This document shows positions 419 to 35,075 of a DNA stretch of 35,075 nucleotides, in pieces (position 1 is the stretch's first letter; each line of letters begins with the position of its first letter). The DNA comes from a virus: the IMG/VR virus record IMGVR_UViG_3300049893_000962, positions 1-35,075 of that record; one strand, given 5' to 3'. The position numbers were made by a program, and so were the translations under genes. The notes below the pieces were generated by a model that did not search any database, had not been told where the DNA came from, and saw nothing but the letters and a program-made list of their open reading frames with translations.

Positions 419-1642
419 GTGGCCAAAATCCTTTATTGCGGTGACGCATTTGTTGAGACAGGGTTTGGCAGGGTGGCTCAAAACATCCTGCCAGCGCTGA
501 ATGAAGCCCATGAGCTCCATATCATGGGCTGTAATTATTGGGGCGATTATGACGAAAAAGCCGAAGGCTATCGCGTGTACCCAGCAGGCGTTTACGGCAG
601 TGATCCGTTTGGTAGCCATCGAGTGGTTGACCTTGTAACACGGATCAAGCCGGATCTGGTGTGGGTAACGAATGATTTCTGGATTGCCCTGGAATACTGG
701 CGTCGTTTAAAGGAAGTACAAGAAAAGATTGGCTTCAAATTCTTTTGTTATTCGCCTATTGACAGCTATGGTATATTCCCAGAGCTGATGCCAAGCGTGG
801 AGGAGTGGGATGGATTTGCCACTTACACCGAATTTGGCGCAGAAGAAATGAAGAAAGCTGGTTACAGCAAGAAGATTGATATTATTCCACACGGCATCGA
901 TCCCAATACATTCTTCCCCATGAGCATGAAAGAATGCCGCAAGGAACTTGGGCTGCCAGATGATGACGCTTTTATTGTCTTTAACGGCAATCGCAATCAG
1001 CCTCGCAAGCGGATTGATATTACCATTCGTGGCTTCATTGATTTCGCTAAAGACAAGCCTGATGCTCGCCTTTGGCTGAACATGGGCACAAAGGATCTTG
1101 GCTGGGATATTGTGCCGCTGTTTAAGCGCATTGCATCTGATTACGGTTATAACTCTAAGGAGAAGCTGATTATTACTAGTCCCAACTTCTCCACTGACAA
1201 TTGCTTACCCGTTGAGCAGTTGAACATGGTTTACAACGCCGTTAATGTTGGCGTGAACACTTGTATTGGTGAGGGTTGGGGTCTTGTCAACTTTGAACAC
1301 GCCGCCACCTGCACTCCTCAGATTGTCCCAGACCATACCAGTCTTAAGGAAATCTTTAACGGAGTGGAGCGCATCGAGATCGAGAGCTGGGAAGTGGATC
1401 GCAACTATGGCCTCGACCGTGGCATCCCCTCTGCTTCTCACATGGCCGACTTGCTTGAGCCTTATTACCAAAAGCCAGACTTGTGCGAGCGGGACGGGAA
1501 ATGGTGCTTTGATAGGGTGCTGGAAAAGCAGTTCCAGTGGCCAGTAATCCAAAAGCAGATGCTGCGGATTATTGATCGTGTTCTCAACGACACCAAGGAC
1601 TCGTCCTTTAAAGGATTTGGTTCTCCCGTTCGCATTGATTGA
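419..1642 (+). CDS. Glycosyltransferase, GT-B fold, family 4 type
   Basis: The 407-residue protein has a Rossmann-like N-terminus (KILYCGDAF, then the GFGRVAQN loop at residues 15-22). A linker HGIDPNTFFP (158-167) is followed by a second nucleotide-binding domain with NGNRNQPRKR (189-198) and the acceptor/donor motif E285-x7-E293 in EGWGLVNFEHAA. These are hallmarks of retaining GT4 enzymes, which move a sugar from a nucleotide-sugar to an acceptor; the sugar and acceptor cannot be read here. The start is GTG at 419, 13 bases after a GGGAGAGA Shine-Dalgarno stretch at 398-405. No ATG is available between the upstream stop and this codon. It is the first gene of a four-gene sugar cassette inside the head module. 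It could modify virion proteins or the host surface. Confidence 0.85.
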   Translation: MAKILYCGDAFVETGFGRVAQNILPALNEAHELHIMGCNYWGDYDEKAEGYRVYPAGVYGSDPFGSHRVVDLVTRIKPDLVWVTNDFWIALEYWRRLKEVQEKIGFKFFCYSPIDSYGIFPELMPSVEEWDGFATYTEFGAEEMKKAGYSKKIDIIPHGIDPNTFFPMSMKECRKELGLPDDDAFIVFNGNRNQPRKRIDITIRGFIDFAKDKPDARLWLNMGTKDLGWDIVPLFKRIASDYGYNSKEKLIITSPNFSTDNCLPVEQLNMVYNAVNVGVNTCIGEGWGLVNFEHAATCTPQIVPDHTSLKEIFNGVERIEIESWEVDRNYGLDRGIPSASHMADLLEPYYQKPDLCERDGKWCFDRVLEKQFQWPVIQKQMLRIIDRVLNDTKDSSFKGFGSPVRID

Positions 1643-1644
1643 TC

Positions 1645-2358
1645 ATGCAAGTTTCTCAAATCTTTCTTTCAGACAATGAAGATCAATCATTGTCTCCGTT
1701 TCTTCAGCACGCTACGGAAACTGTTCAATCGTCATTCGCGAATAGCGATTATGTTCTTTACAACAAAGAAACGCTTCGTCAATTCATTGCTGATCATTTC
1801 GACAGTGATGTTCTTTGGGCTTACGACACACTTCGTCCGTATTCATACAAAGCTGACCTTGGAAGGTTTTGTCTGCTGACTGTATTAGGCGGATGGTATT
1901 TAGATATTGGAGTGAGGATGCAGAATCCCATTGAAGTGGGCGAGCGCATTGAATTGTTAGCATTTCGTGACATTCAACGCTTTAGTTACACGACTTGGGC
2001 CTGTGCAACTACTGTTTTGTATTCAAAACCTAACAATCATGCTTTTATTACTGCAATTGAAATGATTGTTAATAATTGCCATGAGAAATATTATGGCATC
2101 ACTCCATTGTGTCCCACTGGCCCAACTTTACTTGGAGCAGCACTAGCAGCAAATGGCGGCAATGCCAACTTCGTTTATGGCGATTATCTTGAATTGACGC
2201 CCACTCATCAACAGAAAAATAGGGCGTTTATTCTTCCTGATGGCACAATTCTCGCCTGGAGCAAGCCTTCTGATGGCGGCGACTTGACTGGGCTTGGCGC
2301 CAAAGGCGTGAATAATTACAACGAGCTGTGGCATTCTCGCCGCGCATACGGAGACTGA
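1645..2358 (+). CDS. GT32-like glycosyltransferase with altered DxD motif
   Basis: This 237-residue protein has the layout of the DXD sugar-transferase family (GT32, Gly_transf_sug): a short N-terminal beta-alpha part, then YSYKADLGRFCLLTVLGGWYLDIGV (about residues 66-90). In typical members this region reads SDxxRxxxLxxxGGxYLDxDV and the two Asp bind the metal and nucleotide-sugar. Here the second Asp is replaced by Gly (D87-I-G89), so metal binding may be altered or the enzyme may have diverged. I chose ATG at 1645, 2 bases after the preceding stop; a TTG at 1639 would overlap that gene by 4 bases. It sits between a GT4-type transferase and an FkbM methyltransferase, probably in one transcript. 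Confidence 0.75.
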   Translation: MQVSQIFLSDNEDQSLSPFLQHATETVQSSFANSDYVLYNKETLRQFIADHFDSDVLWAYDTLRPYSYKADLGRFCLLTVLGGWYLDIGVRMQNPIEVGERIELLAFRDIQRFSYTTWACATTVLYSKPNNHAFITAIEMIVNNCHEKYYGITPLCPTGPTLLGAALAANGGNANFVYGDYLELTPTHQQKNRAFILPDGTILAWSKPSDGGDLTGLGAKGVNNYNELWHSRRAYGD

Positions 2359-2361
2359 TGA

Positions 2362-2982
2362 ATGAAATTCTTTAGCCAGATCGGCCAAGATGAGTACTAC
2401 ATCGAAAAAATCATCCAACGTCGCAAGGGTGGCCGCTTTCTTGACGTTGGGGCTCATGACGGCATTCGCACTTCCAATACTTATGCCCTAGAGCATTATC
2501 TGGGATGGACCGGCGTTTGCATTGAGGCCAACAAAGACTTGGCTGAACAATGCAAAGAGAATCGTCCAGGCTCTCATACAATACATGCTGCTGTATGGAG
2601 CGAAGAGAAAGAAGTTGTATTTCAGCTTCCTCATTCTGGGAATGATTTCTTGTCTCGTATTGGTGGGCTTGCTGTAAATGAAAACTATTTCGTGCAAGAC
2701 TTCACGCAAACTATTGACGTGACAATGACCGCTCGTCCATTGCGAGACTTGCTTGGACCAGGGAGGCATTATTTTGACTACTTTAGTCTTGATATTGAAG
2801 GTGCTGAACTGGAAGCATTAAAAGGAATTGATTGGCAAAACACTTCCTTTGGATACATTGCAATTGAGTTTGGCCATCGCGAAGAATTTCGTCGCTGCAT
2901 CGAACTCTTTATGGCTGCACATGGCTATTCATGCCATCGCATTAATGACTTTGACGTTGACTTTACGCCTACCTGGAAATGA
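2362..2982 (+). CDS. FkbM family SAM-dependent methyltransferase
   Basis: The 206-residue protein begins KFFSQIGQDEYY, usual for FkbM (Methyltransf_21) proteins. The SAM-binding loop is FLDVGAHDG (residues 26-34), followed by an acidic residue at the end of strand 2 (CIEAN, E55). A later SLDIEGAELEALKGIDW segment is the family signature. FkbM enzymes O-methylate small molecules and sugars and are frequent in glycan clusters, so methylation of a sugar added by the two preceding glycosyltransferases is a reasonable inference. Its stop overlaps the start of the next gene (ATGA, 2979-2982), implying coupled translation. The family call is firm and the substrate is unknown. Confidence 0.88.
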   Translation: MKFFSQIGQDEYYIEKIIQRRKGGRFLDVGAHDGIRTSNTYALEHYLGWTGVCIEANKDLAEQCKENRPGSHTIHAAVWSEEKEVVFQLPHSGNDFLSRIGGLAVNENYFVQDFTQTIDVTMTARPLRDLLGPGRHYFDYFSLDIEGAELEALKGIDWQNTSFGYIAIEFGHREEFRRCIELFMAAHGYSCHRINDFDVDFTPTWK

Positions 2983-4277
2983 CTACTAGCTGGGATTGTT
3001 TTGATACTTTAGTTGCGCGGCGACATTATCTTCCGCGCACGGTATTTGATAGTATCGAGCGCGAAACTGGGCTATTTGATTTTACACGTCGTCGCATGAT
3101 GGCGGAATCAAGAGCGCCTCATACGCTGGATACTATTTACACAGAATTAGCGAAAGACTATGGATGGGATGATGAAACTTGCAAGTTGATAAAGCAAATT
3201 GAAATCAACGAAGAAGTGAATCATTGTTTTCCCGTTGTAGAAAACATCCAGAAAGTAAAAGATGGCGATTTAATTGTCAGCGATATGTACTTGCCGGCTG
3301 AGGCTATTATGCAGATTCTACGGAACTGTGGGCTAAAAGCTGACGTAACGATTCATGTTACGACTGGCGGGAAAAGCGGCGGATGGATTTGGAACACTCT
3401 TCCGCCTATTGACTTGCATGTTGGAGACAATTACCACTCTGACGTTCAAAGCCCGATTTCCCATGGCATTCAAGGGCAGCACTATACAAAGACAGCTTTT
3501 ACTAGACACGAAGAACTATTTGGCGGAGAAGTTGCCTTACTAATGAGGATGGTGCGTCTTGCTAATCCTCATGAAGAAGGCACGGTCTACCATCGTCTTT
3601 GGTGGGAGCAGTCGCAACTAAACATCCCTGCATTGGTCTTGGCGGCCCTTGAACTGCCTAGTACTGGCCTGGCCTTCATCCATCGTGACTGTGTTCACTT
3701 ACAGCGCATTCACGAGGTCATTCATGGCGTCACCAATACTTCTTTCCATTGCTCGCGCATTGCCCTCGCGAAGCGCGGGCGAGGCTGGGATGAATACGTG
3801 AAGGAATGCGCCTATGGGAAGACACTTGTTGATCTCCAAGGCTCTGGTCGCAGCATCGTGAGATATTGGCGGGAAGTGTTCAATGAAATGCCTTCCATGA
3901 TTTACGTCACTGGAATGCTCAATCATGGCTATGCCATTATCCGCACTCCTCATGATATTATTGAGCGCTATAACTCTTCTCGCATTGGCTCCTTGTTGAA
4001 ATGGCCTGAGCGGGAATCTTGCGAGTTTAGAGAAGACTATCTTGATGTGCAATACGAGGCAATTGGTAAAGCTTTGCAATATGTCGAGCTGTTCCATAAT
4101 CTGCAGCCAAATAAAGACTTACTAGCCAAGATTATTGAGTTAATGGTTCACGCTGAAACCCCTGCCATTGTTGATCATTATTCTGATCATGGTCCTAATC
4201 GATATACAGTGCCGTGGCCAGAATCACATAGAATGTCATATGAGTTAGCCTTAGAAAAGGTATTTGGAAACCAATGA
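2979..4277 (+). CDS. HAD-superfamily hydrolase-like protein of the sugar cassette
   Basis: HAD motifs are present in order over the first 160 residues: motif I WDCFDTLV (nucleophile D6, T10), motif II IVSDMYLP (S101), motif III Lys in GGKSGG (K132), and motif IV HVGDNYHSD (D150, D155). Proteins with an FDxFDTL motif I plus a long C-terminal half are common in polysaccharide and glycosylation clusters, often beside or fused to glycosyltransferases. The C-terminal 250 residues contain HRDCVHLQRIH and LVDLQGSGRS, the latter resembling a phosphoribosyl-like loop; I do not assign a function to it. Likely activity is a phosphatase on a sugar or nucleotide intermediate. It overlaps the FkbM gene by 4 bases. 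Its stop overlaps the ATG of the vestigial reading frame at 4274. Confidence 0.75.
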   Translation: MTTSWDCFDTLVARRHYLPRTVFDSIERETGLFDFTRRRMMAESRAPHTLDTIYTELAKDYGWDDETCKLIKQIEINEEVNHCFPVVENIQKVKDGDLIVSDMYLPAEAIMQILRNCGLKADVTIHVTTGGKSGGWIWNTLPPIDLHVGDNYHSDVQSPISHGIQGQHYTKTAFTRHEELFGGEVALLMRMVRLANPHEEGTVYHRLWWEQSQLNIPALVLAALELPSTGLAFIHRDCVHLQRIHEVIHGVTNTSFHCSRIALAKRGRGWDEYVKECAYGKTLVDLQGSGRSIVRYWREVFNEMPSMIYVTGMLNHGYAIIRTPHDIIERYNSSRIGSLLKWPERESCEFREDYLDVQYEAIGKALQYVELFHNLQPNKDLLAKIIELMVHAETPAIVDHYSDHGPNRYTVPWPESHRMSYELALEKVFGNQ

Positions 4278-4318
4278 CTTCTAAGCAGCGCCAAAGTAAG
4301 GTTCGCAAAGTAATTTAG
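4274..4318 (+). pseudogene. 14-codon remnant of a gene start, cut by the HNH endonuclease insertion
   Basis: An ATG overlapping the HAD gene stop (ATGA) opens a 14-residue frame, MTSKQRQSKVRKVI, ending at TAG 4316-4318. It aligns without gaps to the first 14 residues of the gene at 4871 (MSLKEKRRKIARVL): four identities (M, K, K, V) and several conservative pairs (T/S, Q/E, R/K, V/I, K/R, I/L). The stop coincides with the end of the oppositely oriented HNH gene. I read this as the original translationally coupled start of the 4871 gene, separated from it by insertion of the endonuclease. The short length leaves room for coincidence. Confidence 0.5.
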
Positions 4319-4830
4319 CATGCGTCAACATGAAGCCATTGGCGGCCCTTTTCAATGTGGCCAATCGCGGTTCTACTTACACCAAGGGCCTTTGCTAGCA
4401 TGTTTCGCGAAAGACTTGGATTGGAAGCAAGAATATTTTTAATTGCAGCAACTTGATCTTCTGTTAATTTGCTCATTCCATTATTGACTCCTTTATGGAT
4501 GCCATGGCGAATTGAGTCTTGATAATTTTCTTCGGGAGTGCCCCAGGCTAAATTTTCGGCACGGTTGTCATATCTGTTTCCATTCAAGTGTCTAACAATC
4601 TCGAAGTCCTTGGGTTTCCCATGAAATGCTTCGCAGACAAGTCGATGGACTTGTCTTGTTAATCCAGTTACCCCAGCAGGATACAACCCAACTTTTCCAT
4701 AGGGACCAGAAAAATTTATCTTAAGAAGCATTCTTCGGTCTTTTTTCTTCTTGCAAACTCTTCCTTTACTGCTGACTTCGTACAGGCCGCCTGTTTCAAG
4801 AACGGGAAGCCAAACTTCTTTCTCTGCCAT
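4315..4830 (-). CDS. HNH homing-type endonuclease with NUMOD4 and C-terminal helix-turn-helix
   Basis: The 171-residue protein starts at the ATG complementary to 4828-4830 (MAEKEVW); a longer in-frame extension to 4962 would overlap the coding start of the divergent gene and adds no recognisable domain. NUMOD4 occupies about residues 5-47 (EVWLPVLETGGLYEVSSKGRV). The HNH core follows: RQVHRLVCEAF (H62), then VRHLNGNRYDNRAENLAWGT (H81, N83, N89, N93). Residues 124-165 are a DNA-binding helix-turn-helix (LTEDQVAAIKNIL, LAKALGVSRTAIGHIEKGR). This order is typical of free-standing homing endonucleases of phages, which nick or cut cognate DNA and spread by repair. It is opposite in direction to the surrounding late genes. 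A TATACT hexamer lies 24-30 bases upstream of the start on its own strand. Confidence 0.88.
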   Translation of the reverse strand: MAEKEVWLPVLETGGLYEVSSKGRVCKKKKDRRMLLKINFSGPYGKVGLYPAGVTGLTRQVHRLVCEAFHGKPKDFEIVRHLNGNRYDNRAENLAWGTPEENYQDSIRHGIHKGVNNGMSKLTEDQVAAIKNILASNPSLSRNMLAKALGVSRTAIGHIEKGRQWLHVDAC

Positions 4831-4854
4831 TTTTAAATTGCTAGAATCAGCAAA

Positions 4855-4862
4855 AGTATAAC
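4855..4862. promoter_or_regulatory. Overlapping divergent -10-like elements between HNH gene and the 4871 gene
   Basis: AGTATAAC reads TATAAC on the + strand (4857-4862) and TATACT on the - strand (4860-4855). On the - strand it could place a transcript start about 18 bases before the HNH ATG. On the + strand it would start transcription almost at the ATG at 4871, giving a leaderless or nearly leaderless message, consistent with the absence of a Shine-Dalgarno there. I see no convincing -35 hexamer for either direction, so this is tentative. Confidence 0.3.
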
Positions 4863-4870
4863 ATGGTATC

Positions 4871-5176
4871 ATGAGTTTAAAGGAAAAGCGACGCAAGATT
4901 GCGCGTGTTTTACGTGAATTCAAGGCCGGCACCTTGAAGAGCAGCAGTGGCGAACCAGTCAAGAATCGTCAGCAAGCAATTGCTATTGCCATGAGCGAAG
5001 CGGGCATGTCTCGCGGCTCCAAGAGCGATGCTTATTGGGACGCTTATGTGCTGCAAGTGGAGAAGGAAGAGCCTGAAGAAGAAGAGTGTGATGCCAACTG
5101 TGAGATGGACGAAAATCCTGCAGAGGCTCGTTGCAAGGGCTATTTAGCCAGTTTGCGGAAGAAGGCGAAAAAATAG
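4871..5176 (+). CDS. Small conserved phage protein, DUF6496-like, displaced by HNH insertion
   Basis: The 101-residue product has a basic N-terminus, then EFKAGTLKSSSGEPVKNRQQAIAIAMSEAGMS (about residues 16-47). This resembles small phage proteins with a K-S-G...RKQAIAIALSEAG motif (DUF6496-like, recalled from memory). The second half is acidic with EPEEEECDANCEMDENPAEARC (three Cys) and ends in a lysine tail. Function is unknown. The start at 4871 lacks a Shine-Dalgarno, while a matching 14-codon start sits across the HNH gene at 4274. A short C-terminal reading frame continues in the -1 frame after the AAAAAA at the stop. Confidence 0.65.
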   Translation: MSLKEKRRKIARVLREFKAGTLKSSSGEPVKNRQQAIAIAMSEAGMSRGSKSDAYWDAYVLQVEKEEPEEEECDANCEMDENPAEARCKGYLASLRKKAKK

Positions 5177-5250: not shown

Positions 5251-5570
5251 TGGGCGACGCTCTAAATCGTTTGCTTGAGGAAGAAGATGAAGGCATTGGC
5301 ATAATGAAGTCCATTGCCATCCTCTCTGCTAACGAGCATCGCAACACTTCCGAGTGGCGATTAATTGAAAAGCAATGTTTTAAAAATGGGCGACTGGATG
5401 AAACTCACATCTATGTAGAAAGCTACTATGAAAAGCCTGATCCTCATTTTGAGCCAACTAAGTTCCTTGTTTTTGAAATTGAGGCAATGGCAAAGGCTTA
5501 CATCATGGACAACATCGAGGAGCAGATCAGGGGTATTCAGGAGGATGAGGAGGAAGAAGAGGAGGATTGA
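5250..5570 (+). CDS. Acidic hypothetical protein with poly-Glu tail
   Basis: This 106-residue protein is not recognised. It is acidic throughout, starts with LLEEEDEG, has a central mixed segment (HIYVESYYEKPDPHFEPTKFLVFEIEAMAKAYIMD), and ends with EDEEEEEED. The start at 5250 overlaps an upstream TAA (TAATG). The tail-coding repeat (GAG/GAA/GAT) is read on the other strand as the poly-Ser end of the XRE regulator, so the two genes converge and overlap by 34 bases. It sits between the endonuclease scar and the regulator, in an accessory stretch. Confidence 0.6.
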   Translation: MGDALNRLLEEEDEGIGIMKSIAILSANEHRNTSEWRLIEKQCFKNGRLDETHIYVESYYEKPDPHFEPTKFLVFEIEAMAKAYIMDNIEEQIRGIQEDEEEEEED

Positions 5571-5875
5571 GCGGCGTTGGCGATGAACGAGGGATAGCCT
5601 CCTAGCCATAGAATGCTGACGCCAAATAAGCCGCTCATCACACGGACTTGCAGAAAGTCTGGGGAGATGTCGCCTGATTCAAAACGAGAGACTGTGCTCT
5701 GACTGCAATGCAAGGACTGAGCAACGTCAAATTGTGAAAGCCCGCAATTCAAGCGGGCATTTTTTATGCGTTCAGCAATGAGCACTTTGGCTTCCACGTA
5801 AGAGAGGTGCATTGCATCGACGTTACTAGATAGCATGTGTTTTTTCATTCTATTTAGCATAATTTCATAGATCAT
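5537..5875 (-). CDS. XRE-family helix-turn-helix transcriptional regulator
   Basis: The protein (up to 112 residues) has a Cro/CI-type helix-turn-helix: IKNARLNCGLSQFDVAQSLHCSQSTVSRFESGDISPDFLQVRVMSGLFGVS. Proteins with this fold bind inverted-repeat operators as dimers. The stop is the TGA complementary to 5537-5539. Just before it are nine Ser encoded by the complement of the neighbour's poly-Glu repeat. Start candidates are ATGs at 5875, 5860 and 5848; none has a clear Shine-Dalgarno, so the true N-terminus is open. Facing the head-protease gene with only 28 bases between starts, it could repress that promoter and its own. A repressor in the middle of a late module is unusual. Confidence 0.8.
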   Translation of the reverse strand: MIYEIMLNRMKKHMLSSNVDAMHLSYVEAKVLIAERIKNARLNCGLSQFDVAQSLHCSQSTVSRFESGDISPDFLQVRVMSGLFGVSILWLGGYPSFIANAAQSSSSSSSSS

Positions 5876-5903: not shown

Positions 5904-7106
5904 ATGAGCAACCAATCTTTTCGTTACGACGTTGCCCCTATTGATAAGTATGAAATGACCCCTGAGGGTTATCTTCGTGCTTGGGCAACGATTGCGCGTA
6001 CAGGCGTTCAGCATTATTCCAACGCTGACGGCTCCATTCGCCGCGAATACCGTCCCGAAACAGAAGTGGCAGCTCCCGAAAGCCTAGCCTCATTCGCGGG
6101 CAAGGCAATCACTCTTGAACATCCTCCTGTTCTCCTCGATAGCGAAAACACTAAAGACTATCAAATTGGCTTTAGTGGTACTGAAATTGTTTATGACGAT
6201 GGATTCGTCCGTGCTGTCATGACAGTTACAGATAAAGATGCTATTGAAAGTATCATGCGGGGTGATGCAAGAGAAGTGAGTGCTGGCTATAAGGTGTCTT
6301 TTGACCCTACGCCTGGTGTCACCGATAAAGGTGAGAACTATGATGGCATTCAAACTGGAATTATGGGCAACCATATTGCAGTTGTTCGTCGTGGGCGTGC
6401 CGGCCCGCAAGTGAAGCTTCATCTTGACCGTCAAGATGCCGCTGATCCATCTCTAATTACTCAAGGAGAAAATAGTCAAATGACTACCGCTAAGGTGGCG
6501 TTTGATGGCGCGGAAATGGAAGTGAGCGAGGGAGTTGCCCTTGCAATCAACAAAGAACGCGCCGACGCCAAAAAGTCCTATCAGCAAATGAAGGACGAGT
6601 ATGACGCTCTGAATGATCAAATGATGCAGCTCAAAAAAGACATGGAACTTCAGAAGAAGGACATGGAGCTGACGAAGGATTCTGCAGAAGGTCGTGCTGA
6701 TGCCCTCGCTGAAGAAGTGGAAGTTCTGAAGAAAGAACTTGCCGCTGCCCAAGAAATCAATGTTGACAGCCTCGTTGAAGAGCGTATTGCTCTGATTGAC
6801 AAAGCTCGTCCTTGTGTTGATTCCGCCTTTGATTTCTCTGGCAAATCTGCCCGTGAAATCATGGAGGCTGCCATTGTTGCAGTCCGTGGCGATTCCGTCG
6901 AACTCTCTGAGCGTTCTGACGATTATGTGGGTGCCATGTTTGACACCCTGGTTGAAGTGGCTGCTCGTAACGATTCGGTGAAAACTGATGAGCTGCGGAA
7001 AACTGTCGCTTCCATCGCTTCTTCCACCTCTGCTCCTTCCTCCTACATGGATCGCCTGCAGAACGCTTGGAAGACCCCTCTCTCCGTCACTAAGGAGGCT
7101 CGCTGA
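5904..7106 (+). CDS. Prohead protease (DUF2213-like) fused to capsid scaffold
   Basis: Residues 1-175 match the DUF2213 phage family (FRYDVAPIDKYEMTPEGYLRAWATIARTG, then FAGKAITLEHPP, REVSAGYKV and MGNHIAVVRRGRAG). H73 in EHPP and S126 in VSAGYKV lie where HK97/herpes-type prohead proteases keep catalytic His and Ser; this assignment is inference. Residues 215-285 form a charged coiled coil (QQMKDEYDALNDQMMQLKKDM and following), as in scaffolds, and the C-terminus continues to 400. Such a protein would guide capsid assembly and then be cleaved. An in-frame ATG at 6480 with AAGGAG before it may express the scaffold alone. The start at 5904 has no Shine-Dalgarno; ATG 5955 is an alternative. Confidence 0.75.
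   Translation: MSNQSFRYDVAPIDKYEMTPEGYLRAWATIARTGVQHYSNADGSIRREYRPETEVAAPESLASFAGKAITLEHPPVLLDSENTKDYQIGFSGTEIVYDDGFVRAVMTVTDKDAIESIMRGDAREVSAGYKVSFDPTPGVTDKGENYDGIQTGIMGNHIAVVRRGRAGPQVKLHLDRQDAADPSLITQGENSQMTTAKVAFDGAEMEVSEGVALAINKERADAKKSYQQMKDEYDALNDQMMQLKKDMELQKKDMELTKDSAEGRADALAEEVEVLKKELAAAQEINVDSLVEERIALIDKARPCVDSAFDFSGKSAREIMEAAIVAVRGDSVELSERSDDYVGAMFDTLVEVAARNDSVKTDELRKTVASIASSTSAPSSYMDRLQNAWKTPLSVTKEAR
6480..7106 (+). CDS. Nested internal start: scaffold protein alone (lambda Nu3-like arrangement)
   Basis: Within the protease-scaffold gene, AAGGAG (6463-6468) lies 11 bases before an in-frame ATG at 6480. Initiation there would give a 208-residue protein (MTTAKVAFDGAEMEV...) that lacks the protease domain and contains only the coiled coil and C-terminal part. 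Lambda makes its scaffold gpNu3 in just this way from the 3' part of gene C. The junction falls in the linker right after the DUF2213 domain, where a separate scaffold should begin. The evidence is positional and from the ribosome site; translation is not shown. Confidence 0.5.
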   Translation: MTTAKVAFDGAEMEVSEGVALAINKERADAKKSYQQMKDEYDALNDQMMQLKKDMELQKKDMELTKDSAEGRADALAEEVEVLKKELAAAQEINVDSLVEERIALIDKARPCVDSAFDFSGKSAREIMEAAIVAVRGDSVELSERSDDYVGAMFDTLVEVAARNDSVKTDELRKTVASIASSTSAPSSYMDRLQNAWKTPLSVTKEAR

Positions 7107-7682: not shown

Positions 7683-8591
7683 ATGTCTGAATTCCGTATG
7701 GATGACGCGGGTCTGTTTCTTGAGCGTCAGCTTGAGTACATCCGCCCCCAAGTGTTTGAAGTCACTTATGCTGACATCAAATACGCAACCGTGCTGCCTG
7801 TGACCAGCGAAGCTGGCCCTGGCGCTCAAACCTTCACCTATCGGATCATGGATTCGACTGGTGAGTTCCGCCTCATCGCTGATGCGGCCGATGATCTGCC
7901 CCGTGCTGACATCAGCCAAATCGAGAAGAGCATCAACATCCGCTCCTTCGGTGGTTCCTTCGGTTATACCGTCCAGGAACTCCGCGCCGCTCAAATGGCC
8001 AACATTGCTCTTGAGCAACGTCGTGCCTCTGCCGTGCGTCGTGCCTATGAGGAGAAAGTGGAGAGCGTTGCTTTCTTCGGTGAGAGCGCAGCTAGCCTGA
8101 CCGGTTTCTTCAATAACGCCACTGTGGACGTTGTTGCTGCCGACAAGTGGTTCACTGGTAGTGGCACCACTGCCCAGGAAATGCTTGAACTCCTGAACTA
8201 TGGCGTGACTGCAATCATCAACGCCTCCAAGATGAAGGAGCAGCCCGACACCATTCTGATGTCCTACACGGACTACAACAAGGTGTCCACCACTCGTAAC
8301 TCCGATTCTTCGGACGTGACGGTTCTGGAGTATTTCCTCCGCACCAATCCCTACATCCGCAACGTTGAGCCGATTAACCAGCTCGACGCTGCCAATGGTC
8401 CGCTCAACACCAATCGCATGATTGTGTACAAGCGTGATCCTGAGAAAGTGCAACTGCACATTCCTCAACCGCTCGAACTCTTCCCGCCTCAACAGCGTGG
8501 CCTTGAGTTCATTGTTCCTGCTCATGCTCGTGTGGGCGGCGTGGCTCTGTACTATCCCAAGAGCGTTATCTACGTTCAGGCTTCGTCTTGA
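7683..8591 (+). CDS. Major capsid protein, DUF2184 type
   Basis: The 302-residue protein begins FRMDDAGLFLERQLEYIRPQVFEVTYADIKYATVLPV and contains IRSFGGSFGYTVQELRAAQM, with EFIVPAHARVGGVALYYPKSVIYV at the end. This pattern matches the DUF2184 major capsid family (HK97 fold). It follows the protease-scaffold and cement genes, the standard position. AGGAGG at 7669-7674, 8 bases before the ATG, is one of the best Shine-Dalgarno sequences in the window. Codon use is strongly biased to C-ending and CGT codons. There is no obvious long N-terminal delta domain, consistent with a separate scaffold. Confidence 0.85.
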   Translation: MSEFRMDDAGLFLERQLEYIRPQVFEVTYADIKYATVLPVTSEAGPGAQTFTYRIMDSTGEFRLIADAADDLPRADISQIEKSINIRSFGGSFGYTVQELRAAQMANIALEQRRASAVRRAYEEKVESVAFFGESAASLTGFFNNATVDVVAADKWFTGSGTTAQEMLELLNYGVTAIINASKMKEQPDTILMSYTDYNKVSTTRNSDSSDVTVLEYFLRTNPYIRNVEPINQLDAANGPLNTNRMIVYKRDPEKVQLHIPQPLELFPPQQRGLEFIVPAHARVGGVALYYPKSVIYVQASS

Positions 8592-8641
8592 GCTATTTAA
8601 GCAACGGGCGTTAAGCTATTTTCTGGTTCTATTGAACAAAA

Positions 8642-9028
8642 ATGTTAATTGCTTATCGCCCCGAGCTCGAAAATCCGCCTCGCGAGGGTGGCTTTGGGAT
8701 TATTACGGAAGCTGGCATTATCCAGCTCACTCCTGGTCTTAATCAGGAAATTCCCGAATCTCAATGGCAGCAAGCACGTAAAAATGCTGTTGTCAAGCGC
8801 ATGATGGCTATTGGGGCCATTGAAGAGCTTAAGGAGCAAATCACCGTGGAAAATATTCCGCATGATGCTCAAACTCTTACGTCTCTTCCGCTTATTGAAG
8901 CCTTTCGGATTATTGAAATCATGCATGATGCTGATCAGTTAATTGCATGGAAAAAGATCGAAGGGCGCGTGAGGATTCGTAATTCCATTGCCAAGCGTTT
9001 AGAAGCACTCAAAATTGGAAGGGCCTGA
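8642..9028 (+). CDS. Hypothetical head-module protein
   Basis: This 128-residue protein is not recognised. It starts MLIAYRPELENPPREGGFGIITEAGIIQLTPGLNQEI and has a helical second half (QQARKNAVVKRMMAIGAIEELKEQ, then IEAFRIIEIMHDADQLIAWKKIEGRVRIRNSIAKRLEAL). It lies between the major capsid protein and the DUF4054-like connector, where many phages have a small head-completion or unknown virion protein. The 50 bases upstream contain no terminator, so it is probably co-transcribed with the capsid gene. Codon use is T/A-ending, unlike the capsid gene. Confidence 0.6.
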   Translation: MLIAYRPELENPPREGGFGIITEAGIIQLTPGLNQEIPESQWQQARKNAVVKRMMAIGAIEELKEQITVENIPHDAQTLTSLPLIEAFRIIEIMHDADQLIAWKKIEGRVRIRNSIAKRLEALKIGRA

Positions 9029-24462: not shown

Positions 24463-25128
24463 ATGAAAACGATTAGAGTTTTTGGTGATCTAGCCAAAAG
24501 GCTTGGCCAAAGGGTTTTTAAGGCAAAGGTTTCGTCTGCAGCAGAAGCTGTAAGGTTTCTTGTTGCCAATTTCCCCTGGCTGGAAGCTTACATGAGGGAA
24601 AGGTTGTACAAGGTATTCGTTAACACCTATAATTTGGCATTAGAAAATCTTCAAGAACCAGTTTCTTCCATTGAGGAAATTTTAATTTGCCCCGTCATTG
24701 AAGGGGCTGGTGCTGTCGGAAGAATTATTGTAGGAGCAGTTTTAATTGTTGCTGCATTTTTCACTTTTGGTGTCACTTTGTTTTTTGGAGTTACTTTAGG
24801 AGGCTTGTTGTTTACTGTTGGTGCCGCACTGCTTCTTGGCGGTATTTCGGAATTGTTAGCGCCAAAAGTTGCTGACATGGGAAAAGATTCAGAAGAGATT
24901 GAAAGCTATAACTTTAGCGGACTTGTTAATACAAGTCGTCAAGGAGTTCCTGTTCCAGTATGCTATGGAGAAGTTGTGACGGGTAGCGTTGTCATCAGTG
25001 CTGGCATTACGGTTGGGTCTCTCGGGTCTAGCGGTGGAACGCAAGTTCTAGAGGGAGTCACTGGCAAGTCCCAGTCAAAACCCGCGTTTACTGCCGCTAC
25101 CACTTCTCGAAGCAAATTTGCACAATAA
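24463..25128 (+). CDS. I: Tail assembly protein I (gpI-like)
   Basis: The 221-residue protein has a ubiquitin-like N-terminus (KTIRVFGDLAKRLGQRVFKAKVSSAAEAVRFLVANFP), then a glycine/alanine-rich hydrophobic stretch (about residues 84-130: GAVGRIIVGAVLIVAAFFTFGV and onward), and the segment NFSGLVNTSRQGVPVPVCYGEVVTGSVVISAG, which is diagnostic of the gpI family. gpI is needed for tail tip assembly and lies between K and J as in lambda. It ends 4 bases before the J-like gene. Confidence 0.88.
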   Translation: MKTIRVFGDLAKRLGQRVFKAKVSSAAEAVRFLVANFPWLEAYMRERLYKVFVNTYNLALENLQEPVSSIEEILICPVIEGAGAVGRIIVGAVLIVAAFFTFGVTLFFGVTLGGLLFTVGAALLLGGISELLAPKVADMGKDSEEIESYNFSGLVNTSRQGVPVPVCYGEVVTGSVVISAGITVGSLGSSGGTQVLEGVTGKSQSKPAFTAATTSRSKFAQ

Positions 25129-25132
25129 CAAA

Positions 25133-28100
25133 ATGGGCGTTCATTTTCCTATTCATGGCGCAGGCGGTGGTGGCGGCGGTTGTTTTACAGGATCGACCCT
25201 GATTAGCACTCCAGGCGGATCTCGACGGATTGACGAGCTAAAGGCTGGAGATATTGTCTATAGCTTTGATGATGCCGGCGCGATCAAAGAAAAAGAAATT
25301 ATTGCCGTCCATTGCCATGAAAACGAACAGGTATTTCGCTATAAAATTTGGGGAGGAAGTTTTTTAGATGCCACTCCTAATCATTGGGTACTGAATCAAT
25401 ACAATGCTTTTGTCTGTATTGGGGGCTTGAACAGCGATGACTGCCTGGTAGACGAAAGCGAACATTTGCGGCCCATTGTAGGGAAAGAGGATCTCGGCCT
25501 TCACACTGTTTACAATTTAACAGTAAAAGGATGCCATACTTTTATTGCGGATGGCATACGTGTTCATAATGCCGGTTTAGGAGCCGGCTCAATTCATGGT
25601 GCAGGCGGTGGTGGTTGCTTTACGGGAGAAACATTAGTTTGCACTCCAGAGGGTAGTGTTAGAATTGATTCCCTAAAAGCAGGCGATATTGTTTACAGTT
25701 TTGATGATCACGGTGAAATCAAAGAAGGAGAAGTTATTGCTGTTCATTATCACAAAAGTGAGCAGGTTTTTAAATATAAACTTTGGGGTGGTACTTATTT
25801 AGAAGCTACGCCTAATCACTGGGTGTTGAATCAATACAATGCATTTGTTTGCATTGGCGAATTAGGAGATGATGATTGTGTAGTTGACGAGAACGACCAC
25901 TTGCGGCCCATTACAGGGAGGGAGGATATTGGATTCCATCCTGTTTACAATTTAACGGTTAAAGGGTTTCATACGTTTTTTGCAGGCGGTGTTCGTGTTC
26001 ACAATGCTGGACTAGGTGGAGGGTTGATTCATGGCGCTATCCGTGGAGAAGGCGGCGGTGGTGGCGGCGGTAAGGGAAAAGGGGGCGGTAAGAAGCCAAG
26101 GACTGATCCAGATAGTTTAAATTCCGAAGCAAGAGCATCTATTATTGATGTTTTAGGAGAAGGGGAAATTGAAGGATTTCCTTCTGCTAAGCAATACAGC
26201 AAAACCGACCAGGCTTATTATGCAGCGGCGTTAAAAGATGTTTATTTTGATAAAACACAAGTATTAAAAAGCACTGCTAATCCAGAATCAGTTTCGCAGT
26301 CTGATTTTAATTTTAAGATTGCAGACGCTGCTGTACGTTTTGGCACCAATGATCAAACGTATGTTCCTGGATTTAGTAATATTGAAAACGAGCAAGCAGT
26401 AAATGTTGTTGTTAGCGAAGCTTACCCAGTTACTAGAACAATCACGGACACTGATGTTGATGCCATTAGATTGACGATCAACTTTCCTTCTTTGCAAAGG
26501 TTTACCGATAAAGGTGACATTCTTGCTACTTCAGTTAGATATCAAATTATTATTACCGGCCTTAATCAAAGCCCAGTAGTAGCGGAAGATGTCACTGTAG
26601 AAGGGAGAACTGGTGATTTGTATCAAAAAAGCCATACTATTAATCTTGCTGGCTATGCTTTTCCGATTGAAGTTGCGGTAAAGCGAATTACTTCAGACTC
26701 AAGTAATACAAAGGTTCAAAATGCTTTTGGTTGGGCTAGTTACACGGAAATCACCTATGGCAAACTTAGGTATCCAAACACCGCTTACATTGCATTGTCT
26801 TTAAATGCTAGAGATTTTTCTAGTATTCCAACTCGTACTTATCGAATTAGGGGACTGAAGGTTTCCATTCCTAACAATGCAACTGTAGACAGTGAGAATG
26901 GGCGATTACTTTATTCGGGTCTTTGGGATGGTGAGTTTGCCAATGCACAATGGACGACCGATCCAGCGTGGATTCTTTGGGACATGCTTACCAATACCAG
27001 ATACGGAGCGGGCAGTTTTATTCTTCAAGAGTATTTAGACAGGTTTTCTTTTTATCAAGCTAGTCAATACTGTTCCGAACTAGTGCCCGATGGCAAGGGA
27101 GGACAAGAGCCTCGTTTTTCTTGCAATGTTGTAATTAGAAATCAAGATGATGCTTATAAAGTAATTAATAGCTTGTGCTCTGTTTTTAGGGCAATGCCCT
27201 ATTGGAGCGCTGGCGCATTGATGATCAGCCAGGATCGACCGACTGACGCGAGTTATTTATTTAATGACACCAACATTCTTGAAGGAGGATTTCAGTATTC
27301 TGGTTCAAGCTTAAAAACAAGGCATTCTGTTGCCATTGTTAGCTGGTTTGACATGGAGCAGCAAGATATTGTTTACGAAGCCGTAGAAGATCAAGCTGCT
27401 ATACCAAAATATGGAGCTAACACTGTTCAGGTGGAAGGCTTTGCTTGTACAAGTCAAGGTCAAGCAAGAAGGCTTGGCGAATGGATTCTATACACAGAGC
27501 AATACGAAACGGAAGTTATTTCTTTTAAAACGGCATTGGACGCGGGTCCTTTACTGACTCCAGGATGCGTTATTGGCGTCATGGATAAACTGAGATCTGG
27601 CGTAAGAAGGGGAGGACGCATTGTTTCATCTAGTACGACTACGATTTTGGTCGATGAGACATTGGCTACCGATCTTCCATTGACCGGATCACCTAGTATC
27701 CTCGTGCAAATGGCTGATGGCACTACTGAAAGCAGGCCAGTCGCTTCTGTCTCCAATGGGAAGATCACTGTAACGACGCCATTTTCGGCGGCGCCATTAA
27801 TTGGTGGAGCGTTTATCTATAGCAATGATAGTCAAGGAGTTACCTATTGGAGAGTTATTTCGGTTAAAGAAGAAGACCGTAGTGCTTATACAGTAAATGC
27901 CGTTTCCTATAACGCATCAAAATACGATTATGTGGAGCGTGGTGCTAATTTAATCCGCAAAACATATCTTCCAATCGAGATAGAAGAGCTAGACCCTCCT
28001 GCTTCTATTACGACTAGCGCTATTTCCGTATTAGAAAATGGCGCAATTACTAATCGCGTTTTTGTTAGCTGGCCTGCAGTGCCAGATGCTGCTTATTATG

Positions 28101-29476
28101 TCGTAAATTATCGCCCAATCGACACAGCAGCTTGGATTGGAGAAGAAACAAGCGCCCCCGTTATAGAGTTTAACTCAGCTCGCACAGGAGGATACGAGCT
28201 GCAGATTGCGACGGTAAATGCTGTTGGTCGATCTTCGTCTCCATCATCTTTTGAGTTTAGTATTGATCCAAGTAGCCTGCCAATGCAGGACGTATCTAAT
28301 GTAACAGCAACAATTAATAGTCCAACTTTGGTAACACTAAGCTGGTCTCCTGCGACGAGAGCTTACATTCTTGTTGGAGGATCGGTAATTATTAAGCATC
28401 AAGCAGTAGCTTCCAATGCAACATGGGGGGATGCTACGACAATTATCAGCTTATCTGGTTCTTCTACAAGCGCACAAGTGCCTTTGATTACTGGCACTTA
28501 TTTACTACGATTTCAGTCGTCCTCAGGCTCTCTCAGTGAAAATACTACTACTATTTATGTCAGTGCTCCTGCAGTCAATACTTCGACCGCCTTTACGTTT
28601 AACGAGCATTTAACTGTTCCTCCTTTCAATGGAACAAAAGCGGGGATGCGTTACGACGAAGAGGATGCTGGACTGCTGTTAGAGGGAGGTGTTTTTATTG
28701 ATGATATTGGCGTTGGAGGAGACTGGGATACATTTAACACTGTTGATGGCCTAACAAGCTTGATTGATTTATGGCAGGCTAATATCGATGAATTGGGAGA
28801 CATTGACACTTATCCTGAGATTGATACTGTTGCTTCCAGTGGAGGATGGGATTCTATTGAGTCAGTTGATTTAGTTTATGGCGGCGCTAATAGCGGAGAA
28901 TACTATTTTGACCTTGGCGGTTCTCCCGTTGATTTGGGCGGTAATTTTAATGTATATGTAAACAGGACGCTAGAGGTTCAGGGGTATTTACTGATCTCGG
29001 ACATTGACGTAAGAAGCGACTTGATTGACACTTGGACTGATTTTGATGGTGTTATTTCCGAACTTGGCGATGCAAGTGTTCAAATGAGGATAAGTTCCGA
29101 TGGAATTGTGTTTACAGAATGGACTAATTTTATTAATTCTTCCATTAATGCTCGCTTCCTTGAATTCAGGCTGATTGCTAGCACGACTTCATCTGCTGAA
29201 AGCGTACTTGTCAAGCAGCTTGGGGCAAGCATTCAATTACCAGAACGCACTGAAACGAAGACTGTCAATGGGAATGGAGCAGTCCTGTTCCAAGATGCTT
29301 TCTATACAATTCCCTCCATTGTTATTTCTGGGAATAATGCACAGAGCGGTGATTACTACCAAGTGACCAGTCTTACAAGGACTGGCATGACTGTAACATG
29401 GTATAATAGCAGTAATAGCCCTGTCTCAAGAACTTTCAACTATCAAGCGACAGGGTACGGAACTGAGATCGTCTAA
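25133..29476 (+). CDS. J: Tail hub/central fibre protein J with two N-terminal Hint domains
   Basis: The 1447-residue protein uses ATG at 25133 (a TTG at 25118 overlaps gpI). Order: a 16-residue Gly-rich start; Hint1 (17-146); a 15-residue linker; Hint2 (162-291); a Gly/Lys-rich stretch (GGGKGKGGGKKPRTDPDS); then the lambda-J body from about 330 (ARASIIDVLGEGEIEGF, ISQDRPT, the SCSVFRAMPYW region), which forms the tail tip baseplate. FN3-like modules occupy about 952-1045 and 1047-1145, and a beta-rich receptor-binding part ends the chain. Lambda J also begins with a Gly/Lys-rich segment followed by the SVIDAISEGPIEG motif, so the Hint pair is an N-terminal addition. Cleavage after Hint2 would leave a nearly standard J. 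Confidence 0.93.
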   Translation: MGVHFPIHGAGGGGGGCFTGSTLISTPGGSRRIDELKAGDIVYSFDDAGAIKEKEIIAVHCHENEQVFRYKIWGGSFLDATPNHWVLNQYNAFVCIGGLNSDDCLVDESEHLRPIVGKEDLGLHTVYNLTVKGCHTFIADGIRVHNAGLGAGSIHGAGGGGCFTGETLVCTPEGSVRIDSLKAGDIVYSFDDHGEIKEGEVIAVHYHKSEQVFKYKLWGGTYLEATPNHWVLNQYNAFVCIGELGDDDCVVDENDHLRPITGREDIGFHPVYNLTVKGFHTFFAGGVRVHNAGLGGGLIHGAIRGEGGGGGGGKGKGGGKKPRTDPDSLNSEARASIIDVLGEGEIEGFPSAKQYSKTDQAYYAAALKDVYFDKTQVLKSTANPESVSQSDFNFKIADAAVRFGTNDQTYVPGFSNIENEQAVNVVVSEAYPVTRTITDTDVDAIRLTINFPSLQRFTDKGDILATSVRYQIIITGLNQSPVVAEDVTVEGRTGDLYQKSHTINLAGYAFPIEVAVKRITSDSSNTKVQNAFGWASYTEITYGKLRYPNTAYIALSLNARDFSSIPTRTYRIRGLKVSIPNNATVDSENGRLLYSGLWDGEFANAQWTTDPAWILWDMLTNTRYGAGSFILQEYLDRFSFYQASQYCSELVPDGKGGQEPRFSCNVVIRNQDDAYKVINSLCSVFRAMPYWSAGALMISQDRPTDASYLFNDTNILEGGFQYSGSSLKTRHSVAIVSWFDMEQQDIVYEAVEDQAAIPKYGANTVQVEGFACTSQGQARRLGEWILYTEQYETEVISFKTALDAGPLLTPGCVIGVMDKLRSGVRRGGRIVSSSTTTILVDETLATDLPLTGSPSILVQMADGTTESRPVASVSNGKITVTTPFSAAPLIGGAFIYSNDSQGVTYWRVISVKEEDRSAYTVNAVSYNASKYDYVERGANLIRKTYLPIEIEELDPPASITTSAISVLENGAITNRVFVSWPAVPDAAYYVVNYRPIDTAAWIGEETSAPVIEFNSARTGGYELQIATVNAVGRSSSPSSFEFSIDPSSLPMQDVSNVTATINSPTLVTLSWSPATRAYILVGGSVIIKHQAVASNATWGDATTIISLSGSSTSAQVPLITGTYLLRFQSSSGSLSENTTTIYVSAPAVNTSTAFTFNEHLTVPPFNGTKAGMRYDEEDAGLLLEGGVFIDDIGVGGDWDTFNTVDGLTSLIDLWQANIDELGDIDTYPEIDTVASSGGWDSIESVDLVYGGANSGEYYFDLGGSPVDLGGNFNVYVNRTLEVQGYLLISDIDVRSDLIDTWTDFDGVISELGDASVQMRISSDGIVFTEWTNFINSSINARFLEFRLIASTTSSAESVLVKQLGASIQLPERTETKTVNGNGAVLFQDAFYTIPSIVISGNNAQSGDYYQVTSLTRTGMTVTWYNSSNSPVSRTFNYQATGYGTEIV
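25181..25570 (+). other. Hint (intein-like) domain 1 in J
   Basis: The 130-residue domain starts with Cys (CFTGSTL) and has block A (RRIDELKAGDIVYSFDD), block B (ATPNHWV, TxxH-type with H68 of the domain), block F (VYNLTVKGCHTFIADGIRV), and ends HN. These are the motifs of intein, BIL and hedgehog autoprocessing domains. There is no room for a homing endonuclease. The residue after HN is Ala, so the +1 nucleophile of standard inteins is missing, as in BIL-type domains, which favour cleavage over ligation. Function inferred, activity unproven. Confidence 0.88.
25616..26005 (+). other. Hint (intein-like) domain 2 in J
   Basis: The second 130-residue domain aligns without gaps to the first with 97 of 130 identical residues by my count. 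It starts CFTGETL and keeps TPNHWV, GFHTF and terminal HN, again followed by Ala (AGLGG). The linkers are also repeated: IHGAGGGG before each Cys and AGLGxGxIHGA after each HN, giving a 435-base repeat unit (25181 to 25616). Both copies keep all catalytic residues, suggesting both are under selection. Confidence 0.88.

Positions 29477-32783: not shown

Positions 32784-32787
<4 letters not shown>
32449..32787 (+). CDS. Putative tail-associated beta-sandwich protein
   Basis: The 112-residue protein ([47 protein letters not shown]...) has the I-x-Q-G-A-T-F-x-L-x-L-x-Y-K-D-x-x-G-x-P-V-x-x-S-G-Y pattern. This resembles small beta-sandwich (BppU-N-like) modules used at the base of phage receptor-binding proteins. 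Here it is a free-standing gene directly upstream of the collagen-like fibre, overlapping it by ATGA (32784-32787), so it may be the fibre's adaptor. Confidence 0.6.

Positions 32788-35075
<2,288 letters not shown>

Follow-up and report, generated by a model that had tools for sequence, protein, structure and literature searches.

A probable glycan locus with a constant core and exchangeable finishing genes in the head operon of S-CBS4-like phages, with a predicted dual-domain ribofuranosyltransferase

Why should a tailed phage carry a compact set of sugar enzymes among its head genes, and what do these enzymes decorate? The question is raised by the IMG/VR virus record IMGVR_UViG_3300049893_000962, whose 35,075 bases (the window, that is, the whole stretch of DNA analysed here) carry genes for the head and tail of an uncultivated phage of siphovirus-like type. 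Among the cultured members of the phage collection, Synechococcus phage S-CBS4 comes closest: its major capsid protein (MCP) is 85% identical to that of the window. An earlier reading of the sequence (the original prediction) had described four tightly packed sugar genes on one strand, and this description holds: all four open reading frames (ORFs) are intact at the positions given below, and their junctions are as claimed. The first two genes overlap by 4 bases if the second starts at TTG 1639, or are separated by 2 bases if it starts at ATG 1645, the equivalent of which is the start codon in several relatives; the following gap is of 3 bases and the last two genes overlap by 4 bases. The cassette is composed of:

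419 to 1642, + strand: GT4 glycosyltransferase, conserved core gene 1 (PHROG 2170, EX7E motif, match to B736L)
1639 to 2358, + strand: GT32-like (Gly_transf_sug, GT-A) glycosyltransferase, conserved core gene 2 (PF04488; ATG 1645 is a possible start)
2362 to 2982, + strand: FkbM-type methyltransferase, accessory (exchangeable) gene (PF05050, TIGR01444)
2979 to 4277, + strand: predicted dual-domain ribofuranosyltransferase, accessory (exchangeable) gene, the HAD-family protein of the original prediction (Bcs3 profile match, fold of an AlphaFold2 model)

On balance, we favour the view that this cassette is a phage glycan locus made of a fixed core and exchangeable caps, and that its acceptor is most likely a virion protein. 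That the phage runs a glycan pathway of its own from a late head operon has good support, and the virion target proposed with it is the likeliest reading.

A predicted ribofuranosyltransferase and its methyltransferase partners

The 432-residue product of the last gene had no match in Pfam, PHROG or NCBIfam. The HAD-like domain first reported is confirmed by fold (residues ~1 to 180), and it is followed by a PRPP (phosphoribosyl pyrophosphate)-transferase-like domain (residues ~200 to 430) that had been overlooked. Profile searches matched the protein to Haemophilus Bcs3, with E values that ranged from 4e-23 to 1e-16 between alignments, and one of the runs also matched it to 7shg, a ribofuranosyltransferase of Thermobacillus (E 1e-8). 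An AlphaFold2 model built with 15 aligned relatives was confident throughout, with a mean predicted local distance difference test score (pLDDT) of 91.5. Its residues 1 to 422 aligned with residues 381 to 1032 of Bcs3, the CrpP-CriT part, over 420 residues (Z 20.7), and its residues 1 to 398 with 7shg from Thermobacillus composti over 366 residues (Z 17.8); Foldseek gave E values of 2e-15 and 2e-9, respectively. By fold, only these two structures covered both domains, the HAD-only structures reaching a Z of ~13 over residues 1 to 176. The root-mean-square deviations of the two-domain alignments are high (7.0 for Bcs3 and 12.8 for 7shg), probably because of a domain shift and of inserts in the targets.

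In Bcs3, CriT transfers ribofuranose-5-phosphate from PRPP and the HAD phosphatase CrpP, which retains only the first Asp of its DXD motif, then strips the phosphate (PMC10299916); the same two steps, PRPP transfer and dephosphorylation, have been demonstrated for Campylobacter Cj1432 (PMC12096443). The HAD catalytic residues D6, S101-D102, K132, D150 and D155 of the phage protein are invariant in the 15 relatives, and the phage DXD motif likewise has only its first Asp left (D6 in SWDCFDTL). The PRPP-pocket motif S678-R679-D680 of CriT aligns with H235-R236-D237, Ser678 being a His in the phage protein; R236 is invariant and D237 is lost in two distant relatives. R260, D285 and S292 are also invariant and are plausible counterparts, by motif alone, of Bcs3 R708, E818 and T825, the stretch VDLQGSGRS that contains D285 and S292 resembling the second half of the CriT pocket.

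Because of the two-domain match, the profile matches, the confident model and the motifs, we are largely confident in the prediction of a dual-domain ribofuranosyltransferase, which most likely uses PRPP to attach a ribofuranose to a glycan. It is improbable that the protein acts as a HAD phosphatase only, on a sugar phosphate, with some other role for its second domain. The use of PRPP is deduced from fold and motifs, H235 stands in place of the Ser of the SRD motif, and the C-terminal domain alone retrieved nothing from the sequences of the PDB up to an E value of 10; against this, the full model aligns with CrpP-CriT over both domains with a Z of 20.7, compared with ~13 for the HAD-only matches.

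Dual-domain ribofuranosyltransferases are known from the capsules and O antigens of bacteria (CrpP-CriT of Bcs3 in Haemophilus type b, Campylobacter Cj1432, the Klebsiella O4/O7 enzymes and 7shg). The predicted phage enzyme shares with them the order of its two domains (HAD phosphatase first, PRPP-transferase-like second), a DXD motif reduced to its first Asp, putative R-D and D...S pocket motifs and a seat in a sugar gene set. It differs from Bcs3 in being stand-alone, without the ribitol-phosphate transferase and SH3b domains, and from all the bacterial enzymes in being phage-encoded within a head operon and known here from sequence and predicted structure. In the literature searched, mostly open-access, we found no description of a phage ribofuranosyltransferase, and among 50,697 phage records only two contained relatives of this protein, neither of them named as such. 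The enzyme families of the cassette and the glycosylation of phage virions are already known; what appears new is a phage-encoded enzyme of this predicted type within a swappable glycan locus. All cells produce PRPP, and a phage with such an enzyme can therefore add a sugar even if it encodes no pathway for nucleotide sugars.

For the gene that precedes it, the FkbM call was borne out (PF05050, 61 bits for a cut-off of 22.7; TIGR01444, 46.2 for a cut-off of 37.7). In other relatives that bear the ribosyltransferase, an unrelated methyltransferase (MTb) replaces FkbM, and wherever a contig of the lineage shows the ribosyltransferase together with its immediate upstream neighbour, that neighbour is FkbM or MTb. 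The pairing also exists elsewhere, as in four unrelated phage contigs (L139, L140, L141 and L146) FkbM is found directly downstream of the ribosyltransferase. Two methyltransferases in the same slot, together with this pairing, suggest that the methyl group goes onto the added ribose or onto a neighbouring sugar.

One site, a standing core and at least five finishing sets

The GT4 call is supported by PHROG 2170 (glycosyltransferase, E 2e-53), the Pfam Glyco_transf_4 score being just below its cut-off. In the 13 sequences compared, E293 of the EX7E pair is invariant and E285 is kept in at least 90%; the protein also carries a GNRNQPRKRID loop. Its best solved relative is chlorovirus B736L, matched by profile over the full length (E 5e-33). 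A GT4 43% identical to that of the window was seen in cyanophage S-EIVl (L003:8986-10254), beside primase and S-adenosylmethionine decarboxylase genes and away from the head genes.

The second enzyme matches PF04488 (28.1 bits for a cut-off of 23). A model of medium confidence (AlphaFold2, pLDDT 70) retrieved GT-A enzymes, with Och1 9n3s (E 2e-6) among the first matches, and points to a GT-A fold; the alignment gave no match among the sequences of the PDB. Family profile and predicted fold support the GT32-like call; a motif residue considered below speaks against a canonical GT32. Three contigs (L120, L121 and L122) from bacterial metagenome-assembled genomes (Nitrotoga, Nitrosomonadales and a proteobacterium, none of them cyanobacteria) each carry, around positions 8000-8700, one GT32-like gene with 60-64% identity to that of the phage, which points to an exchange of this gene with bacteria at some time. 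No ribosyltransferase match was obtained in these three genomes, nor, at E 1e-15, in 200 genomes of their phylum, in a search run without a positive control.

The original prediction had placed the cassette between head genes as if it had been inserted there. Relatives were gathered in two ways, by GT4 and by MCP irrespective of the cassette (best 80 of 331). All the capsid-selected contigs that span the interval from the MuF-like minor head protein gene to the head protease gene (21 out of 21) carried GT4 and GT32-like genes at this site. At this site S-CBS4 has GT4, then a GT2-like protein and after it a methyltransferase, and two contigs found via the HAD gene (L133 and L135) had no recognisable GT32-like gene, so that the GT32-like gene is near-universal among the members of the lineage examined and not strictly universal. 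The accessory genes at the site come in at least five sets:

FkbM or MTb, with the HAD (ribosyltransferase) gene
DUF4422, a C-methyltransferase, GTx (no Pfam match) and Methyltransf_24
DUF4422 downstream of GT4 and, upstream of it, an SDR-like protein (named by eye, without a match in Pfam), a TIM barrel resembling sugar isomerases, an FAD oxidoreductase and a further protein
DUF4422 and a small methyltransferase
DUF4422 and UDP-galactopyranose mutase (GLF)

On a protease and capsid protein tree of 31 phages, these sets changed at least 12 times (minimum possible 4), as counted on contigs that begin outside the cassette; the GT4 tree gave the same number. The contigs L084 and L086 carry different sets, yet their portal, protease and MCP are 99-100% identical, and the pairs L009/L019 and L051/L048 likewise carry different sets. 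The presence of the core at the site in all 21 contigs and the set switches on the head-gene tree therefore mean that the cassette is no recent insertion in the window's phage: GT4 and the GT32-like gene are a standing part of the lineage and the finishing genes are swapped. This constant-core, exchangeable-cap arrangement at one site of the head operon is found in dozens of contigs. The possibility that the cassette was a host locus beside a broken prophage was also considered and is excluded, the same arrangement being present in phage S-CBS4 and in many IMG/VR contigs. The presence of UDP-galactopyranose mutase in another set fits a furanose theme.

The four genes are under strong purifying selection. 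Compared with the nearest contig, L020 (proteins 81-87% identical, the 2979-4277 protein 81%), the ratio of nonsynonymous to synonymous substitution rates (dN/dS) was 0.035-0.065, rough values since synonymous sites are close to saturation, and all four genes are therefore maintained. Raw synonymous differences from L020 were higher in the cassette (0.59-0.74) than in the protease, decoration and capsid genes (0.35-0.47), which fits exchange between lineages, but the same difference might arise if codons are more strongly constrained in the highly expressed head genes.

S-CBS4 and the window share the order portal, MuF-like gene, GT4 (59% identical), two further sugar genes, HNH endonuclease, DUF6496 gene, protease and MCP; S-CBS4 differs by its GT2 in place of the GT32-like enzyme, a different methyltransferase and no ribosyltransferase. 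A constant core with a changing finish among near-identical heads makes the question of why phages diversify this glycan directly testable, and one cultured member of the lineage, S-CBS4 on Synechococcus CB0101, is at hand. L128:2337-9581 carries two sets in tandem, MTb-ribosyltransferase and then DUF4422-C-methyltransferase-GTx-Methyltransf_24, with a GT4 split over two ORFs, which suggests either an intermediate of recombination or an error of assembly.

The proposed pathway and its probable acceptor

We infer the donor, the product, the acceptor, the order of the steps and the benefit to the phage as follows. GT4 and the GT32-like enzyme would build the inner part, or stem, of a short glycan, and the acceptor of this glycan would most likely be a protein of the virion. 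The C-terminal domain of the 2979-4277 protein would then transfer ribose-5-phosphate from PRPP onto this glycan, and its N-terminal HAD domain would remove the 5-phosphate to leave a ribofuranose, as fold and motifs suggest; given the constant pairing, FkbM would then probably O-methylate the ribofuranose or a neighbouring sugar. Relatives would finish the glycan with other gene sets, so that the locus would act like a phage 'serotype' locus. We tentatively propose, while holding it slightly less probable than the contrary, that virions in the S-CBS4 lineage are coated with a methylated ribofuranose, made from PRPP by a phage ribofuranosyltransferase, or with another swappable sugar, and that this coat is switched by module exchange at one site as in O-antigen serotype switching.

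Known systems offer parallels to this scheme. In chloroviruses, a common core of the capsid glycan is predicted from universal enzymes and is completed by strain-specific decorations, with a fused methyltransferase (PMC5408694). PBCV-1 and its relatives thus resemble the phage locus in their virus-encoded glycosyltransferases, two universal predicted core builders, variable decoration and methyltransferase involvement, and among solved structures it is their B736L that stands nearest to the phage GT4; they differ in that their glycosyltransferase genes are scattered instead of grouped in one locus, and in their eukaryotic host. Mycobacteriophages are, like the window's phage, tailed phages with their own glycosyltransferases. 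Their capsid and tail tube C-termini are proven glycan acceptors, according to the account of Freeman et al. (2023) cited in PMC12619734; within that account the difference is that virion acceptors are proven there, whereas a virion acceptor is predicted here, for an enzyme set swappable between relatives. Bacterial O-antigen and capsule loci have in common with the phage locus a constant site, exchangeable sugar sets and the same enzyme families, and differ from it in that the phage locus lies inside a head operon and has no recognised export or polymerisation genes.

This last likeness leads to another acceptor. The enzymes could alter the cyanobacterial surface (lipopolysaccharide or capsule) late in infection, so that progeny avoid sticking to debris or competitors are kept out, an explanation that we regard as rather unlikely. 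GT4, DUF4422, GLF, FkbM and ribofuranosyltransferases are indeed of the kinds typical of capsule and O-antigen clusters (PMC11231755), and the exchange of sets would fit a tracking of host serotypes. However, the cassette proteins gave no match to any family of flippases, polymerases, lipid-carrier transferases or exporters; in particular, when those of the window and its relatives were scanned, no Pfam match was obtained to the GtrA flippase and lipid-carrier glucosyltransferase of the gtr serotype-conversion module. Moreover, head genes surround the sugar genes in every relative, a position in keeping with an action during assembly. A much smaller probability is given to the glycosylation of phage DNA bases against restriction, even though DNA hypermodification is a common task of phage glycosyltransferases. 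DNA glucosylation usually starts with a hydroxymethylase of the thymidylate synthase type. This family (PF00303) was absent from 16 records of the lineage, which may be incomplete, the control genomes being positive, and S-CBS4 is annotated with ThyX and dCTP deaminase, without a hydroxymethylase; furthermore, DNA glucosylation does not need a free swapping of sugar-modifying and methyltransferase sets. Phage Thanatos is nevertheless known to have a pentose on cytosine (PMC12838424), and a base handle might be made by some other route.

Among virion proteins, we considered a collagen-like fibre whose gene (32784-35075) runs off the window end. The fibre contains 96 G-X-Y triplets in long runs, with Thr in 62 of the 96 Y positions, and its Gly-X-Thr repeats could be O-glycosylation sites. 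Thr-rich collagen repeats are glycosylated in other bacteria. A similar fibre is present in G011, but the other tail regions examined, including those of S-CBS4 and several near-complete records, have no such repeats though the core is present. A scan for G-X-T (22 records) and one for G-X-Y runs (~30 loci) were positive only for the window and G011; the fibre was thus rejected as a general acceptor. That it should be the acceptor sought here is highly doubtful, and it may be one acceptor in the window's phage.

A virion target remains the likeliest because in all relatives these genes lie within the head operon, the search for export or flippase families among them gave no match, and no hydroxymethylase of the thymidylate synthase type was found in the 16 records. 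Several points weigh against this choice of target or against the roles given to the core enzymes. No conserved glycosylation tract was identified in a structural protein, the late-operon position also fits a late modification of the host surface, and, as the S-EIVl case indicates, this GT4 family need not be bound to head genes. The biochemical function of B736L is not known (PMC5408694). Finally, D89 of the second core enzyme is invariant and the second Asp of its DXD motif is replaced (D89-x-G/A/S) in 12 of 12 sequences; we therefore call it GT32-like and not a canonical GT32.

Genes around the cassette

The surroundings of the cassette are as follows:

2 to 379, + strand: C-terminal (3') part of the MuF-like minor head protein gene, truncated by the window start (PHROG 24776, E 3e-52)
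4315 to 4962, - strand: NUMOD4/HNH homing-type endonuclease (PF13392 and PF07463)
4871 to 5176, + strand: DUF6496 gene, conserved downstream border of the cassette (PF20106)
5537 to 5875, - strand: antisense helix-turn-helix (HTH) gene, between a 106-residue ORF and the head protease gene (PF01381)
5904 to 7106, + strand: DUF2213 head maturation protease, downstream head gene (PF09979, E 8e-43; PHROG 530, E 7e-103)
7683 to 8591, + strand: MCP (PF09950, E 1e-58)

The cassette had been placed between a minor head protein and a scaffold. The upstream neighbour is indeed the MuF-like gene, whose product is 74% identical to S-CBS4 gp013 and which adjoins the portal gene in relatives; downstream, four genes (the antisense HNH endonuclease, the DUF6496 gene, the 106-residue ORF and the antisense HTH gene) separate the cassette from the head protease. 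The DUF6496 gene marks the downstream border in nearly all relatives.

S-CBS4 has, in the same position, a counterpart of the HNH endonuclease with 74% identity, and L124 has one with ~78%; most other relatives lack the gene. The endonuclease is probably a passenger beside the cassette, and it might aid module exchange by cutting nearby. The antisense HTH gene, odd within a late operon, keeps its place before the protease in nearly all relatives. Further downstream, the tail-tip J-like protein (25118-29476) starts with two tandem Hint/intein-like domains (PF07591, PF01079, PF14890), each of which runs from a CFTGxTL start to an HNA end.

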